DNA of 42,160 nt, from positions 1 through 42,160 of the forward strand of contig NZ_LLYW01000031.1 in NCBI RefSeq assembly GCF_001484195.1, read 5' to 3'. Shown here piece after piece: positions 3,540 to 30,881 of this stretch. The number at the start of each line of letters is the position of its first letter. The stretch's first letter is position 1. The translations under genes were made by a program, and so were the position numbers. The stretch comes from Thermococcus celericrescens. GTDB taxonomy: Archaea; Methanobacteriota_B; Thermococci; Thermococcales; Thermococcaceae. A model generated the notes under the pieces. That model was not told where the DNA came from, did no database searches, and saw only the letters and a list, made by a program, of their open reading frames with translations.

Positions 3540-3857
3540 GGCGGCGGGCGCGCCCGGGGGTGGGAACCCTCCACCGCCCGTTTCCACCGGGGCTCGCTCA
3601 CCCCCGCTACCCCACGAGCGCCGAACGTCCCGCCTACCGCTGCTCCCTTCCGGGCCTGGCGGGGTTCGGCGGGCAAAGGGCGTTAGTCCGGCCCTCCAGC
3701 CGGACCCCGCCCACCGCCGGCCCCGTGGGACGAGGGATCACCGTTGTGCCCCGGCTTCCGCGGGCGGCTTTGGGAACCGCCCCCCGGGCTTCGGCCCCGG
3801 CATATCGACGGTTTCCGGTTGCAGGGGACGCCGAACCCCCCGGCCTAGCCCGCCGCC
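3540..3857 (-). ncRNA. Signal recognition particle RNA (7S RNA)
   Basis: This very GC-rich stretch of about 318 bases carries the hallmark SRP54-binding helix 8 on the minus strand (CAGGCCCGGAAGGGAGCAGC, around 3640-3660). The 5' end GGCGGCGGGC pairs with the 3' end GCCCGCCGCC, closing the long helix 5 as in archaeal SRP RNAs. The 5' domain also resembles that of Pyrococcus 7S RNA. A TATA box lies 27 bp upstream of the 5' end and a T-rich tract follows the 3' end. Open frames in this stretch are by-products of GC content. Ends are placed by pairing and are good to a few bases. Confidence 0.95.
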
Positions 3858-3889: not shown

Positions 3890-3929
3890 TTTGGTAATCC
3901 CTGAAACCAAAGGTGAAGAACCTTCGGAT

Positions 3930-3942
3930 TGAAAAATTTTCA
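3930..3942. promoter_or_regulatory. FL11-type (Lrp family) operator at the pdh promoter
   Basis: TGAAA-AAT-TTTCA is a perfect match to the 13-bp consensus TGAAA-WWW-TTTCA described for the Pyrococcus feast/famine regulator FL11. It abuts and partly overlaps the TATA element of the pdh operon (CATAAATGC, 3941-3949), a placement that would block TBP/TFB binding. A close FL11 homologue is encoded at 30429 in this window. The match is seen directly; regulation is inference. Confidence 0.7.
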
Positions 3943-3979
3943 TAAATGCATGAACGAATAGGTGCATGGGTGATACACC

Positions 3980-5424
3980 ATGCGCTTAACTGAGCATCCT
4001 GTTCTGCGTTTTGAGCGTGGCAGGGAGGTTACAATATACTTTGAAGGACGGCCGATCAAGGCATACGGGGGGGAAACGATAGCGACGGCCCTTCACGCCG
4101 CTGGAATCAGGGTTCTAAACTACTCCGCCAACGAGAGACGCCCAAGGGGTCTCTTCTGCGCCATCGGCAAATGCTCCTCGTGTCTGATGGTCGTGAACGG
4201 AATCCCGAACGTCAGAACCTGCATAACCCTCGTCGAGGACGGCATGAGGATCGAACCCCAGCGCGGAAAGGCCAAGTTGCCGAAGGAAGCAAAGCCGCCT
4301 GAGTTCAAGGACGCAAAGGTCGTCAGGGCGGACGTCGTTATAGTGGGCGGCGGTCCAGCCGGCCTAATGGCAGCTATCCACGCGGCTGACGCAGGAGCGA
4401 GCGTCGTTCTTCTTGATGAGAACCCCATGCTCGGCGGCCAGCTCGTCAAGCAGACCCACAAGTTCTTCGGCAAGCGCGAGCAGTTCGCGGGAGTCAGGGG
4501 CGTGGAGATAGCCAAAATTCTTGAGGATGAAGCCAGGAAGAGGGAGAACGTTGAAATCTTCCTTGAAACGTCCGCCGTTGGCATCTTTCAGGAGGGCGAC
4601 GAGAAGCTCGTCCTGGCCGTCAAGAACAACCGCGAGCTGATAGAGTTCCGCGGAAGGGCGGTTATCGTGGCAACCGGCGCGATGGAGAAGATGATACCAT
4701 TCGAGAACAACGATTTACCGGGGATCTACGGTGCCGGCGCGATTCAGACGCTCATGAACACTTACGGCGTCAAGCCCGGTGATAAGGTTCTAATCGTTGG
4801 AGCCGGAAACGTGGGACTTATTCTGGCGTATCAGCTCATTCAGGCCGGCGTTGAGGTGAAGGCGATAGTCGAGGCCATGCCGAAGGTCGGCGGCTACTTC
4901 GTCCACGCGGCCAAGGTTAGGCGCCTGGGCGTTCCGATACTCACGAGACACACCATCTGCGCGCCGAGGGCAGGGAGAAGGTCGAAAGGGCAATCGTTGC
5001 CCAGCTCGATGAGAACTGGCGGGTCATCCCCGGAACGGAGAGAACCTTTGAGGTTGACGTCATAGCACTCGCAGTCGGTCTGAGGCCCAGCATCGAGCTC
5101 CTCCACCAGGCCGGCTGTCAGATAATGTACGTCCGCGAGCTCAGCGGGCACGTGGCTGTCCGCGACGAGTGGATGGAGACTACCGTTAGGGGAATCTTTG
5201 TTGCCGGAGACTCGGCCGGGATAGAGGAGGCAACGACCGCAATGCTCGAGGGCAAGGTGGCCGGAATTGCAGCCGCGCTGCGGCTGGGCATAGCGGACGA
5301 GGGCTGGCTCAGGGAGATGGAGAAGGCCCAGAAAGACCTCCTGGAGTTCCGCTCCGGGCCCTTTGGCAGGCATGTGCTCGAGGGCATAAAGAAGGCCCTT
5401 ATTGGAGGTGTCGCCAGTGAGTGA
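3980..5424 (+). pseudogene. pdhA: L-proline dehydrogenase alpha subunit PdhA, one-base frameshift
   Basis: This is the alpha subunit of the four-subunit dye-linked L-proline dehydrogenase (pdhAFXB type): an FAD/NAD-binding protein that passes electrons from the proline-oxidising beta subunit. The N-terminus is a Fer2_4-type [2Fe-2S] domain with its cysteines (CAIGKCSSC, then a fourth Cys about 14 residues on). The FAD motif VVIVGGGPAGLMAA and a second Rossmann motif VLIVGAGNVG follow. The frame breaks after RRLGVPILTRHTI: at about 4958 one base is missing, and the rest (REKVERAIVAQ through EGKVAGIAAALR) continues in another frame to 5424. With the base restored it would be about 481 aa, the normal length. 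It may be a true inactivating mutation or a sequencing error. The start ATG follows GGTGAT. Confidence 0.85.
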
Positions 5425-6133: not shown

Positions 6134-6398
6134 ATGGGGGAAAAGAAAATCGTCTGTCGCTGTAACGACGTCACCGTTGAGGAAATTGAGGCGCTCATCG
6201 ATTCCGGCGTCACTGACATCGAGGAGCTCAAGAGGCTTCTCCGCATAGGAATGGGCCCCTGTCAGGGAAGGACTTGTATTCCTATAGTGCTGTCGATCCT
6301 CGCGAGGAAAACTGGAAAGAGGCAGGAGGAGATACCGCTTCCAAAGGCGAGGGTCCCCACGAGGCCCGTTCGCGTAGAGGTCATAGTGGGTGGTGCCG

Positions 6399-6406
<8 letters not shown>
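6134..6406 (+). CDS. pdhX: Proline dehydrogenase delta subunit PdhX (BFD-type [2Fe-2S])
   Basis: A 90-aa BFD-like protein with CRCNDVT near the start and GPCQGRTC about 40 residues later, the Cys-X-Cys and Cys-X4-Cys pairs that hold a [2Fe-2S] cluster. This is the small subunit of the four-subunit proline dehydrogenase. The start ATG 6134 has GAGGTG six bases before it; an in-frame GTG lies at 6125. It overlaps pdhB by eight bases. The insertion upstream separates it from pdhF by about 200 bp, so translational coupling with pdhF is probably lost. The same domain is fused to the C-terminus of the alpha subunit of the second locus (25045-26535). Confidence 0.86.
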
Positions 6407-8316
<1,910 letters not shown>

Positions 8317-25044: not shown

Positions 25045-26535
25045 TCAATCCCTCCCCGCGGTGACCTTCATCCTGACGTTCTTCAGCGGCGGTCTCGCGA
25101 CGGGTATGTCGAGCCTGTCCATCGGCGTTCCGGTTCTCTGGGAGACGACCACCGCGCCGTTGAACAGGCAGAAGCGGCCCTGACAGAAGCCCATCGCGAG
25201 GTGGGTCAGGCGCTTGATTATCTGCAGGTCGGTTATTCCACTCCTCACGACGTCGTCTACCTTCCTCAGGGAGACGTCGCAGCCGCATATCTGGACGTCC
25301 TCAAGGTTGAGGCTTCCGAAGTCTATACTCTGAACCTGCACCGCCTCCGGTTCGTACTCCTTCAGCCTCTCCGCGTGGATGCACGGCTCGGCGTCGAAGC
25401 CGAACTCCCGGAGGATGTAGGCCCCGACGAGCCTGCCCTCCAGGTAGTTTGCGTAGTGCGGCTTTATTGAAACGGCGCTACCGGCGACGTAGATTCCGTC
25501 GCGGATCCTGTGCTGGGAGTCGAGAACCGGGGTGTAGTAGCCGTGCTTGAAGACCAGCTTTCCACCTGCCTGGGTCGGCGGGTTGATGTCGGGTCTCCTT
25601 CCCTCGGCCATGATGACGGCATCAACCTCGTAGACGTTGCCGTTCGTGTCGATGAGCCTCTCGACCTTCTCATCTCCCTCAACGCGCTTGGGATTCGGGA
25701 CGACGATGTATTCGATGCTCCAGCGGTCGAGCTCCGCCGTTATCTCTTCCGGCTTGCTACCCACGACTGCGACCTTCCTTCCAGGCGCAACTCCCCAGAC
25801 GTTGAGAACCTCCAGGAGGTCGGAGCGCCTGAACACACCCGGCATGTCGTTGTTCTCGAAGAGATGGATGTTGTCAACGGCTCCAACGGCCAGAACGACG
25901 CGCTTGGCCATTATCTCGATGAGCTGGTTTTCCCCGGTAACTATTGGCACGAGGAAGTACTCGCCCTTGTCGAAGACGCCGAGGGCTATCGTGCCCTTGA
26001 AAACACTGACGTTCTCGTTGAACTTTCCGGTGAGCTCCCTAACGACTTCCTGGGGGGACTTCTCCCCAAAGCCCTTCTGGGGAAGGCCCTTGAGCCAGAG
26101 GTCGCCTCCGAGCCAGCCCTTCTCCTCCACCAGGGCGACAGTCAGGTGATCCTGAACCTTGAGAACGGTTCCGATTCCAGCCGGGCCGCCTCCGATGACG
26201 GCCACATCAACTACCAGCCTTTCAACCGGCTTGCCCTCGTCGATCTCCACGGTCTCCTGGAAGTCCCCGTACCCCTGTCTCTCCAGCCTCATACCGTCAC
26301 GAACCTTGGTCTTCCTGGCGTTGACGTTCCTTGTTCCGTTCACCACCATGGGGACCGGGCCGAAGGTGAAGGCGCCGCGCTTTCTGCCCTCGGTACTGGT
26401 TGTGAGCCAGTAAATCCCGTTTGCAAGAAGGGCGACGGTTATTTTTTCACCTTCATAGGCTTCGTAAGCCTTGCCTTCAAAATAAACTGTGACCTTCCTG
26501 GAAGGCTCCTTTTCGGTCAGGTCGAGCGGTCTCAT
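25045..26535 (-). CDS. L-proline dehydrogenase alpha subunit, second locus
   Basis: A 496-aa partner of the beta subunit at 23883, corresponding to PH1363. The N-terminal domain aligns with the Fer2_4 domain of PdhA, but all four cluster cysteines are gone: where PdhA has CAIGKCSSC this protein has FTFGPVP, and the fourth Cys is also replaced. An FAD/FMN Rossmann domain follows (VAVIGGGPAGIGTVLKV) and a second one (KVAVVGSKPEE). The C-terminus (residues about 405-490) is a BFD [2Fe-2S] domain (ICGCDV, FCQGRFC) that in the first locus is the separate PdhX. So this subunit equals PdhA without its own cluster plus PdhX. Its ATG is preceded by GGTGGGAGC. Confidence 0.9.
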   Translation of the reverse strand: MRPLDLTEKEPSRKVTVYFEGKAYEAYEGEKITVALLANGIYWLTTSTEGRKRGAFTFGPVPMVVNGTRNVNARKTKVRDGMRLERQGYGDFQETVEIDEGKPVERLVVDVAVIGGGPAGIGTVLKVQDHLTVALVEEKGWLGGDLWLKGLPQKGFGEKSPQEVVRELTGKFNENVSVFKGTIALGVFDKGEYFLVPIVTGENQLIEIMAKRVVLAVGAVDNIHLFENNDMPGVFRRSDLLEVLNVWGVAPGRKVAVVGSKPEEITAELDRWSIEYIVVPNPKRVEGDEKVERLIDTNGNVYEVDAVIMAEGRRPDINPPTQAGGKLVFKHGYYTPVLDSQHRIRDGIYVAGSAVSIKPHYANYLEGRLVGAYILREFGFDAEPCIHAERLKEYEPEAVQVQSIDFGSLNLEDVQICGCDVSLRKVDDVVRSGITDLQIIKRLTHLAMGFCQGRFCLFNGAVVVSQRTGTPMDRLDIPVARPPLKNVRMKVTAGRD

Positions 26536-26565: not shown

Positions 26566-26620
26566 CCCTTCTTTATACATTGATGCTTATAAACGTTAGG
26601 TTGACCAAAAATGGTGTAAA
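26566..26620 (-). promoter_or_regulatory. Promoter region of the second proline dehydrogenase genes
   Basis: On the minus strand a TATA element CGTTTATAAG (about 26585-26595) lies some 55 bp before the ATG, with a second possible one, ATGTATAAAG (26569-26578), nearer. An inverted repeat ACCA-AAAA-TGGT (26604-26615), inside a wider GGTT...AACC, sits just upstream and could bind a regulator. No FL11 consensus is seen here, unlike the first locus. Confidence 0.45.
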
Positions 26621-26684
26621 ACCACTAGTTAAATACTCCTGCGGACTGGGACGATAAGTACATGCAGAAAAGGAAAAAGGAAAC

Positions 26685-28304
26685 TCAGGCGGTCCCTTTG
26701 GTGAGAATGAAATCAACAACGTTCTCGACCTGGCTCTTGGCCCTGGCCTCGGTGATGCTCTTCTTGCCGGTTCTCTCGATGGAAACCTTCTTGAAGATGT
26801 CCTCGTGGAGCTTGACCACGTCCTCCGGCGGCCTGGTGAACATGCTGACTATCGCGATCACTATCAGGGTCACGAAGAAGTTGATGAAGAACACCGGTAT
26901 GCCGTTGAACCAGCCGCCGATGGTGCCGAAGAAGCCCGGAGCGTCCGGGTTGAAGGCCCAGCCGTATATCTTCGCCTCGAAGATGACCTCGCTGATGAGA
27001 CCGTAGGCCATTCCGACTATCGCTCCCTCCTTGGTCGTCCTCTTCCACCAGAGGCTCAGGACAAGGATCGGGCCGAAGCCGACCGCGAGACCGCCCCATG
27101 CGGTGGCGACCATCTGGTAGATGACCTTCGGGCCGCTTATGGCGAACCAGAGGCCGACGAGGGCAACCGCAGCGACGACGAGCCTCGATATGTTGACCAT
27201 CTGCTTCTTGCCGAGCTCCCTTCCGAGGACCTTGTGGTAGAAGTCCCTGGCTATGGCCGAGGACGCGACGAGGAGCTGGGAGTCCGCGGTGCTCATGACT
27301 GCTGAGATTATACCCGCGATGACGAAGCCCGCGAGCCAGCTGGGCATGAGTTCAACCGCCATGGCGGGGATGACCTTCTCGGGGTCGCTGACTTGGAGCA
27401 TTCCGGCGTGGTACATCGCGAAGCCCAGGAATCCTGCAAAGAACGCGCCCCAGAGGACGAGTATGGTCCAGGTACCGCTGATGAAGATACCCGGTCTCCT
27501 GAGCTTCCTCGGGTCCTCAACGCTCATGTAGCGGGTAACGATGTGGGGCTGGCCGAGGTAGCCGACTATCCAGGAGGCGTAGCCTATTGCGAAAACTATT
27601 GCCGCCATTCCGGTGGCGCCGCCGAATGGGTGCAGCAGATTGGGATCCGCGCTGGCTATTATCGCCGTGGCCTTATCGAAGCCGCCTATCTCCGAGAGCG
27701 CAAGGAACGGCACTATAATGAGCGTCAGCAGCATGAACATTGCCTGAACGACGTCAGTCCAGACGACCGCGAAGAATCCACCGGTGATAACGTATGCCGT
27801 CAGGATGATGACGGTTATGATGATTCCGGTGTTGTCGCTTATGCCGAAGCCCTCAGCGAAGGTCTTTCCTCCGGCCGTGAACTGAGCGGCAACGTAGGCG
27901 GTCATGAAGATGACGATTATCAGTGCGCTCAGAATTCTTATCAGCTTGGTGTCGTCCTTGAGCCTTGCCTCGAGGTAGTCGGGGACGGTTATTGCCCTAA
28001 ATTTACCTGCGTATATCCTCAATCTGGGCCCGATAAGGACGTAATCGGCGAGGGTACCAAAGAGACAGCCGATTCCGGCCCAGAAAGCACCGAGACCGCT
28101 GGAAAAGGCAGCACCCGGATAACCGAGCATCAGCCAGCCGGAGAAGTCGCTGGCCTTGTCCGAGAGGGTTGCGGCGAGGACGTGCACCTTCCTCCCGCCA
28201 ACGAAGTACTGGTCCTCCGTTTTGGTGTAGCGGTTGGCCCACCAGCCTATGTAGGCTAGGAGGGCGAGGTACACCAGGAATCCGAGGAGAATTCCGCTGT
28301 TCAT
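26685..28304 (-). CDS. putP: Sodium/proline symporter (SSS family, PutP-like)
   Basis: A 539-aa solute:sodium symporter with about 13 transmembrane helices. The segment DKASDFSGWLMLGYPGAAF matches the PutP signature ASDMSGWL that carries sodium- and proline-binding residues, and ITVPDYLEARLKDDTKLIRILSA matches the loop after TM3. Placement directly before the proline dehydrogenase genes on the same strand strongly suggests L-proline uptake for oxidation. The start ATG overlaps the stop of the small membrane protein (ATGA), so the two are made together. Confidence 0.9.
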   Translation of the reverse strand: MNSGILLGFLVYLALLAYIGWWANRYTKTEDQYFVGGRKVHVLAATLSDKASDFSGWLMLGYPGAAFSSGLGAFWAGIGCLFGTLADYVLIGPRLRIYAGKFRAITVPDYLEARLKDDTKLIRILSALIIVIFMTAYVAAQFTAGGKTFAEGFGISDNTGIIITVIILTAYVITGGFFAVVWTDVVQAMFMLLTLIIVPFLALSEIGGFDKATAIIASADPNLLHPFGGATGMAAIVFAIGYASWIVGYLGQPHIVTRYMSVEDPRKLRRPGIFISGTWTILVLWGAFFAGFLGFAMYHAGMLQVSDPEKVIPAMAVELMPSWLAGFVIAGIISAVMSTADSQLLVASSAIARDFYHKVLGRELGKKQMVNISRLVVAAVALVGLWFAISGPKVIYQMVATAWGGLAVGFGPILVLSLWWKRTTKEGAIVGMAYGLISEVIFEAKIYGWAFNPDAPGFFGTIGGWFNGIPVFFINFFVTLIVIAIVSMFTRPPEDVVKLHEDIFKKVSIERTGKKSITEARAKSQVENVVDFILTKGTA

Positions 28305-30385: not shown

Positions 30386-30413
30386 GTTTATATAACCTTT
30401 CGAAAATTTTTTA
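30386..30413 (+). promoter_or_regulatory. Promoter of the FL11-like gene with near-consensus operator
   Basis: TATA element GTTTATATAA (30386-30395), followed at 30401-30413 by CGAAA-ATT-TTTTA, which matches 11 of 13 positions of the FL11 consensus. Placement just after TATA fits autorepression, which is known for FL11. Confidence 0.55.
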
Positions 30414-30428
30414 CCGGCGGTGATGCTC

Positions 30429-30881
30429 ATGCGAATGGGTTTGGACGATACTGACAAGAAAATCCTCTCCATCCTCCAGAAGAACAGCAGAACGCCCCTG
30501 AGGGAGATTTCCAAGGAGGTCGGGCTGGCGGAGTCAACGGTCTATGAGAGGATCAAGAAACTGAAGGATCGGGGCATAATAAAGAAGTTCACGGTCATGC
30601 TTGACCCCGACTCCCTCGGTTTCCAGATCCTGGCGTTCATCCTCATAAAATCCAAGGCCGGCATGTACGCTCACGTCGCCAACGAGCTCAAGCAACACCC
30701 CCAGATCGTCGAGATATATGAGACCACCGGCGACTACGACATGCTGGTCAAAATCAGAACCGGAGGGAGCGACGAGCTCAACGAGTTCCTTGACACCATA
30801 GGGGAAATAAACGGCGTTGAGGCCACCCACACCATGGTCGTCCTTAAGATACACAAGGAGACCACGGAGCTTCCTCTCTGA
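30429..30881 (+). CDS. Lrp/AsnC-family regulator, FL11-like feast/famine protein
   Basis: A 150-aa regulator. The N-terminal winged HTH has DDTDKKILSILQKNSRTPLR and the recognition helix region LAESTVYERIKKLKDRGIIK. The C-terminal RAM domain has the pattern ILIKSKAGMYAHVANELKQH, IYETTGDYDMLVKIRT and the end HKETTELPL. These segments closely resemble FL11 of P. horikoshii, which binds lysine and represses many genes when amino acids are plentiful, at TGAAAWWWTTTCA. A perfect site of this kind lies at 3930 before pdhA. The start is chosen at ATG 30429, after GGCGGTGAT; ATG 30423 and 30435 are also in frame. Confidence 0.9.
   Translation: MRMGLDDTDKKILSILQKNSRTPLREISKEVGLAESTVYERIKKLKDRGIIKKFTVMLDPDSLGFQILAFILIKSKAGMYAHVANELKQHPQIVEIYETTGDYDMLVKIRTGGSDELNEFLDTIGEINGVEATHTMVVLKIHKETTELPL

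Follow-up and report, generated by a model that had tools for sequence, protein, structure and literature searches.

What controls the proline dehydrogenase operon of Thermococcus celericrescens is the question raised by a short palindrome in front of its first gene, pdhA, which encodes the alpha subunit of a four-gene operon. A first-pass annotation of the DNA analysed here (the window; 42,160 nucleotides, forming contig C31 in a draft genome of 73 contigs) had read this palindrome as an operator of the Lrp-family regulator FL11 and proposed that proline oxidation is switched by that regulator. We compared this promoter with those of related genomes and with the promoters of the candidate regulator and of a second proline dehydrogenase locus (PDH1) encoded in the window. 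The features discussed are listed in Table 1; in addition, a tRNA at positions 1-71 is truncated by the contig end.

Table 1. Genes and promoter elements in the window
Feature	Position	Strand	Remarks
SRP RNA, divergent from pdhA	3542..3855	-	
SurR-type element AACCAAAGGTGAAGAAC	3905..3921	+	One mismatch to the SurR long site AACn5GTTn3AAC
FL11-type operator TGAAAAATTTTCA	3930..3942	.	Overlaps BRE/TATA of pdhA; motif shared with the operator of the FL11 gene
Putative TATA region TTTCATAAAT, the right-hand part of BRE/TATA	3938..3947	+	Position conserved ~35-40 bp before start
pdhA, alpha subunit of the four-gene proline dehydrogenase operon	3980..5065	+	Frameshifted near 4956; homology to ~5403
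pdhB-type FAD subunit (SoxB/ThiO-like)	6390..7565	+	
PDH1 alpha, orthologue of PH1363 (PDB 1y56)	25045..26535	-	
SurR-type element AACTAGTGGTTTTACAC upstream of PDH1 alpha	26614..26630	-	One mismatch; perfect in many relatives
putP-like sodium/proline symporter adjoining PDH1	26685..28304	-	Below PutP equivalog cut-off
Operator of the FL11 gene, TAAAAAATTTTCG	30401..30413	-	Between FL11 gene TATA and start
FL11 (PH1519) orthologue, Lrp/AsnC feast/famine regulator	30429..30881	+	PDB match PH1519/FL11

The 13-mer TGAAAAATTTTCA was found where the annotation had placed it, 37 bp upstream of the pdhA ATG, and is the sole exact match to the consensus TGAAANNNTTTCA in the window, where shuffled sequence would be expected to contain 0.03. 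The annotation had also set it against the TATA element, and it does overlap the conserved TTTTCATAA, which we took as BRE/TATA. The whole genome contained the strict TGAAANNNTTTCA at 2 places compared with 6 for a reversed control pattern, and across 61 genomes of the genus the strict pattern was rare and near control level. As this 13-mer showed no genome-wide enrichment, the consensus match alone is weak evidence, and counts of the strict pattern were rejected as support for FL11. The second exact copy in the genome (L001 1501-1513; G000:C27:35531) lies some 105 bp upstream of an ORF that begins with ATGAAAAAAATTTTG.

The missing enrichment would fit a simpler reading, that the 13-mer is just a BRE/TATA element (GAAAAA..TTTTCATAA) matching the FL11 palindrome by chance, with any regulation exerted through the upstream element. 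Part of the conservation across 3930-3947 must indeed stem from BRE/TATA, given the overlap, and AAAAA..TCATAA is retained in genera without the palindrome. What speaks against this reading came from the FL11 gene itself. The annotation's claim of a close FL11 homologue held up: the best PDB match of the encoded protein was PH1519/FL11 (2cyy; 1ri7, E 5e-63) at ~65% identity, and each genome carried one clear copy. The gene adjoins putP-PDH1 in the window, a neighbourhood that recurs in many relatives. Its promoter contains, on the minus strand just after the TATA, a conserved operator (TAAAAAATTTTCG or TGGAAAATTTTC[GA]), and T[AG][AG]AAAATTTTC[GA]-type operators occupied the gene's own promoter in ~30 genomes. 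The 13-mer at pdhA shares this motif and its register, with AAT at the centre. In a genome with an FL11 that shares 99% identity with PH1519, the FL11-gene operator reads TGAAAAATTTTCT and the pdhA promoter TAAAAAATTTTCA. The same-register 13-mer stands downstream of the TATA in the FL11 promoter, and it also occurs in the PDH1 leader of relatives, so that it is not tied to the BRE position.

Genome-wide statistics, obtained on a complete relative of 2.0 Mb (G013), pointed the same way. A matrix trained on FL11-gene promoter sites only, with pdhA sites left out, ranked the pdhA site 9 as built and 4 when made symmetric. With up to one mismatch allowed, the FL11 palindrome had 24 intergenic sites compared with a mean of 5.9, a stronger enrichment than for any other among 20 permutations of its arms. 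With the FL11-gene operator in hand we lowered our estimate of the pure BRE/TATA reading, which we now regard as quite unlikely. The best non-self match to the matrix was TGAAAAATTTTCG, before the gene for indolepyruvate ferredoxin oxidoreductase alpha (G013:C1:971670, L223). Other top promoter matches belonged to class III and class V aminotransferases, an M32 carboxypeptidase, aldehyde ferredoxin oxidoreductase, an OPT transporter and the translation factors IF-5A and IF-1A, these functions being read off the hit list rather than drawn from a formal enrichment test. In several relatives TGAAAAATTTTCG also occurs outside the FL11 and pdhA promoters. A refined motif, TRAAAAATTTTCR, was present at 122 places genus-wide, including 36 FL11 promoters and 39 pdhA promoters (9 of them assigned by the upstream element only), counts that serve as illustration and not as a test, the pattern having been composed after the pdhA and FL11 sites had been seen. 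Derived from the regulator's own promoter, it offers a usable regulon prediction for Thermococcus.

We then made the comparison that the annotation had proposed, with 62 promoters of pdhA drawn from six genera within the family. Sixty could be aligned over a block from ~75 to 33 bp before the start codon. One part of this block is an upstream element that reads either AACCAAAGGTG-nnn-AAC or AACCAAAGGTT-nnn-CAC; the other is AAAAA..TTTTCATAA, which includes the FL11 palindrome in some promoters and lacks it in others. Far from being absent in all relatives, the 13-mer was present in most of the genus. Perfect TGAAAAATTTTCA was typical of the window's genus and Pyrococcus-type genomes mostly had CAAAAAATTTTCA or TAAAAAATTTTCA; the palindrome core was kept in most of these genomes and missing in 23 of the 60 promoters, the 13-mer being lost at pdhA in genera g11, g13, g14 and some others. 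Judged from this alignment, the putative FL11 site at pdhA is lineage-restricted.

The same alignment bears on which gene the elements serve. The SRP RNA gene is divergent from pdhA and ends 125 bp before it in the window, an arrangement common to several relatives, and the elements might on that account belong to the SRP RNA promoter. Several promoters with unrelated sequence further upstream (L018, L023, L027, L030-L032), however, kept both elements, or at least the upstream one, at a fixed distance from pdhA. Because of this fixed spacing, assignment to the SRP RNA is disfavoured and we consider it highly improbable.

Two genomes were exceptions to the promoter block, G028 (L028, L347) and G029 (L281, L348), in which pdhA has a different promoter. 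In G028 the sequence upstream of pdhA resembles PDH1 promoters and FL11 lies nearby, as would be expected after a move of the pdhA operon into the PDH1 locus.

The upstream element, which the annotation had overlooked, resembles a binding site of the redox regulator SurR. It lies directly upstream of BRE/TATA, 8 bp before the FL11 13-mer, and contains the extended half AACn5GT(T) with a typical spacer. Sites described for SurR read GTTn3AAC or GTTn3AACn5GTT (PMC12162507, PMC8595942). At pdhA every one of the 60 alignable promoters departed from the core by exactly one base, in two mirror forms (41 GTG-nnn-AAC and 19 GTT-nnn-CAC), and none had a perfect GTTn3AAC core; we therefore call the element SurR-type and not a canonical SurR site. 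By this comparison the SurR-type element is more deeply conserved than the FL11 palindrome. We also considered a dyad, CCAAAGGT-N5-ACCTTTGG, as a description of this block and rejected it: its right arm was lost beyond close relatives and AACn5GTKn3MAC was kept.

The uniform departure from the SurR core would be accounted for if AACCAAAGGTKnnnMAC were the site of some other regulator. Yet the spacers CAAAG and CTTAG are the same as in real SurR-type sites, including the pdo promoter, the CAC/GTG variant is shared with hypF and other SurR-type promoters, and published targets of SurR likewise show single changes (PMC12162507); on balance we hold a different regulator to be unlikely. In G013, AACCNNNGGTTNNNAAC with up to one mismatch occurred at 44 intergenic sites compared with a mean of 1.8 and a maximum of 10 for 200 letter-permuted patterns, none of which reached 44. 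The enrichment extended to known SurR targets, with sites before hypD, hypF, CoA-disulfide reductase (Nsr type), ShyB, an Mrp subunit and genes of the NfnA type. A SurR matrix trained without pdh sites ranked pdhA 26 and PDH1 29 in the genome, ranks that are supportive only, its training set having been picked with the same pattern. The window's genome encodes a surR-like gene (ArsR-type, with CTEC as its CxxC), divergent beside pdo.

The pdhA element resembles the Thermococcales SurR regulon in its AACn5GTTn3AAC-type layout and its CAAAG/CTTAG spacer; it differs in that its GTTn3AAC core is always one mismatch off and in that it would control proline oxidation, not the metabolism of hydrogen or sulfur (PMC12162507, PMC8595942, PMC12401011). 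At ~60-75 bp before the start and upstream of BRE/TATA, it is placed as in SurR-activated hydrogenase operons. SurR bound upstream of BRE/TATA activates and SurR overlapping BRE/TATA represses (PMC12401011). The site at 3905-3921 has the position of those at SurR-activated promoters; reduced SurR, the form expected when elemental sulfur is absent, should therefore raise pdh expression.

For FL11, the described Pyrococcus horikoshii regulon is alike in several respects, namely the regulator family, of which the window encodes an orthologue, a 13-bp palindrome, the motif in the regulator's own promoter and targets in amino-acid catabolism, but pdhA is missing from the targets listed in the review (PMC2995911). 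FL11 responds to Lys, Arg and Gln; with lysine it forms octamers that bind long stretches, and the dimer binds single sites; amino-acid catabolism is derepressed in feast (PMC2995911). The window's orthologue most likely binds the single palindrome at 3930-3942. Because this overlaps BRE/TATA, bound FL11 should block TBP/TFB and repress pdhA. One isolated palindrome fits control by the FL11 dimer, with pdhA predicted to be repressed in amino-acid famine and released in feast.

Taken together, 3905-3947 would act as one composite region that controls the pdhA operon. Both motifs are present and conserved, each matches an independently defined motif, and the genome holds both regulator genes; from this we infer binding of FL11 and SurR at pdhA, the direction in which each acts and the effectors involved. 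SurR-type activation combined with FL11 repression of pdh is the best model and, in our estimate, somewhat more likely than not; the cell probably adjusts its proline use to food supply as well as to redox state. The proposal that an Lrp regulator switches proline oxidation stands in part. The FL11-gene operator motif at pdhA and its genome-wide matrix rank of 4 or 9, in the company of amino-acid catabolism promoters, support it well as a reading of the 13-mer; the palindrome is absent in several genera, and the SurR-type element is the more deeply conserved of the two, so that a switch by the Lrp regulator alone appears incomplete. Our literature search found no link of FL11 or SurR to pdh, and the main texts of the sulfur and pressure expression papers, consulted for pdh, contain no mention of proline. 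If the model is true, FL11 and SurR share a target, and a defined promoter amenable to genetics would connect amino-acid sensing with redox/sulfur sensing.

In bacteria, PutR-type Lrp regulators are proline-responsive activators encoded beside the proline dehydrogenase gene. Lrp/AsnC control of proline catabolism is common to those systems and to the one proposed here; unlike PutR-type activators, FL11 appears to act at pdhA as a repressor.

PDH1 and the PutP-like symporter span 23.9-28.3 kb, and the FL11-like site of PDH1 in the window is degenerate (TGTGAAATCCTAG). PDH1 promoters of relatives (e.g. L312, L318, L327) carry TGTAAAATTTTCG, or a sequence close to it, immediately ahead of the start codon and in the FL11-operator register, with perfect SurR-type sites further upstream. 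A tentative and rather doubtful extension of the model is that both Thermococcales proline dehydrogenase operons are under joint FL11 and SurR control, the pdhA SurR site being held one base off by selection so that it would respond weakly or only at high SurR activity.

More distant pdhA homologues in Thermoplasmatota-type archaea had neither promoter element. PdhA homologues of 72-77% identity occur in DHVE2/Aciduliprofundum-type archaea (L080-L093); since such similar proteins are encoded behind unrelated promoters, this suggests gene transfer. Within the window, pdhA is one base short near 4956 compared with G013: its reading frame is interrupted around residue 326, and the homology can be followed in a different frame to ~5403, which may reflect either a real mutation or an assembly error.
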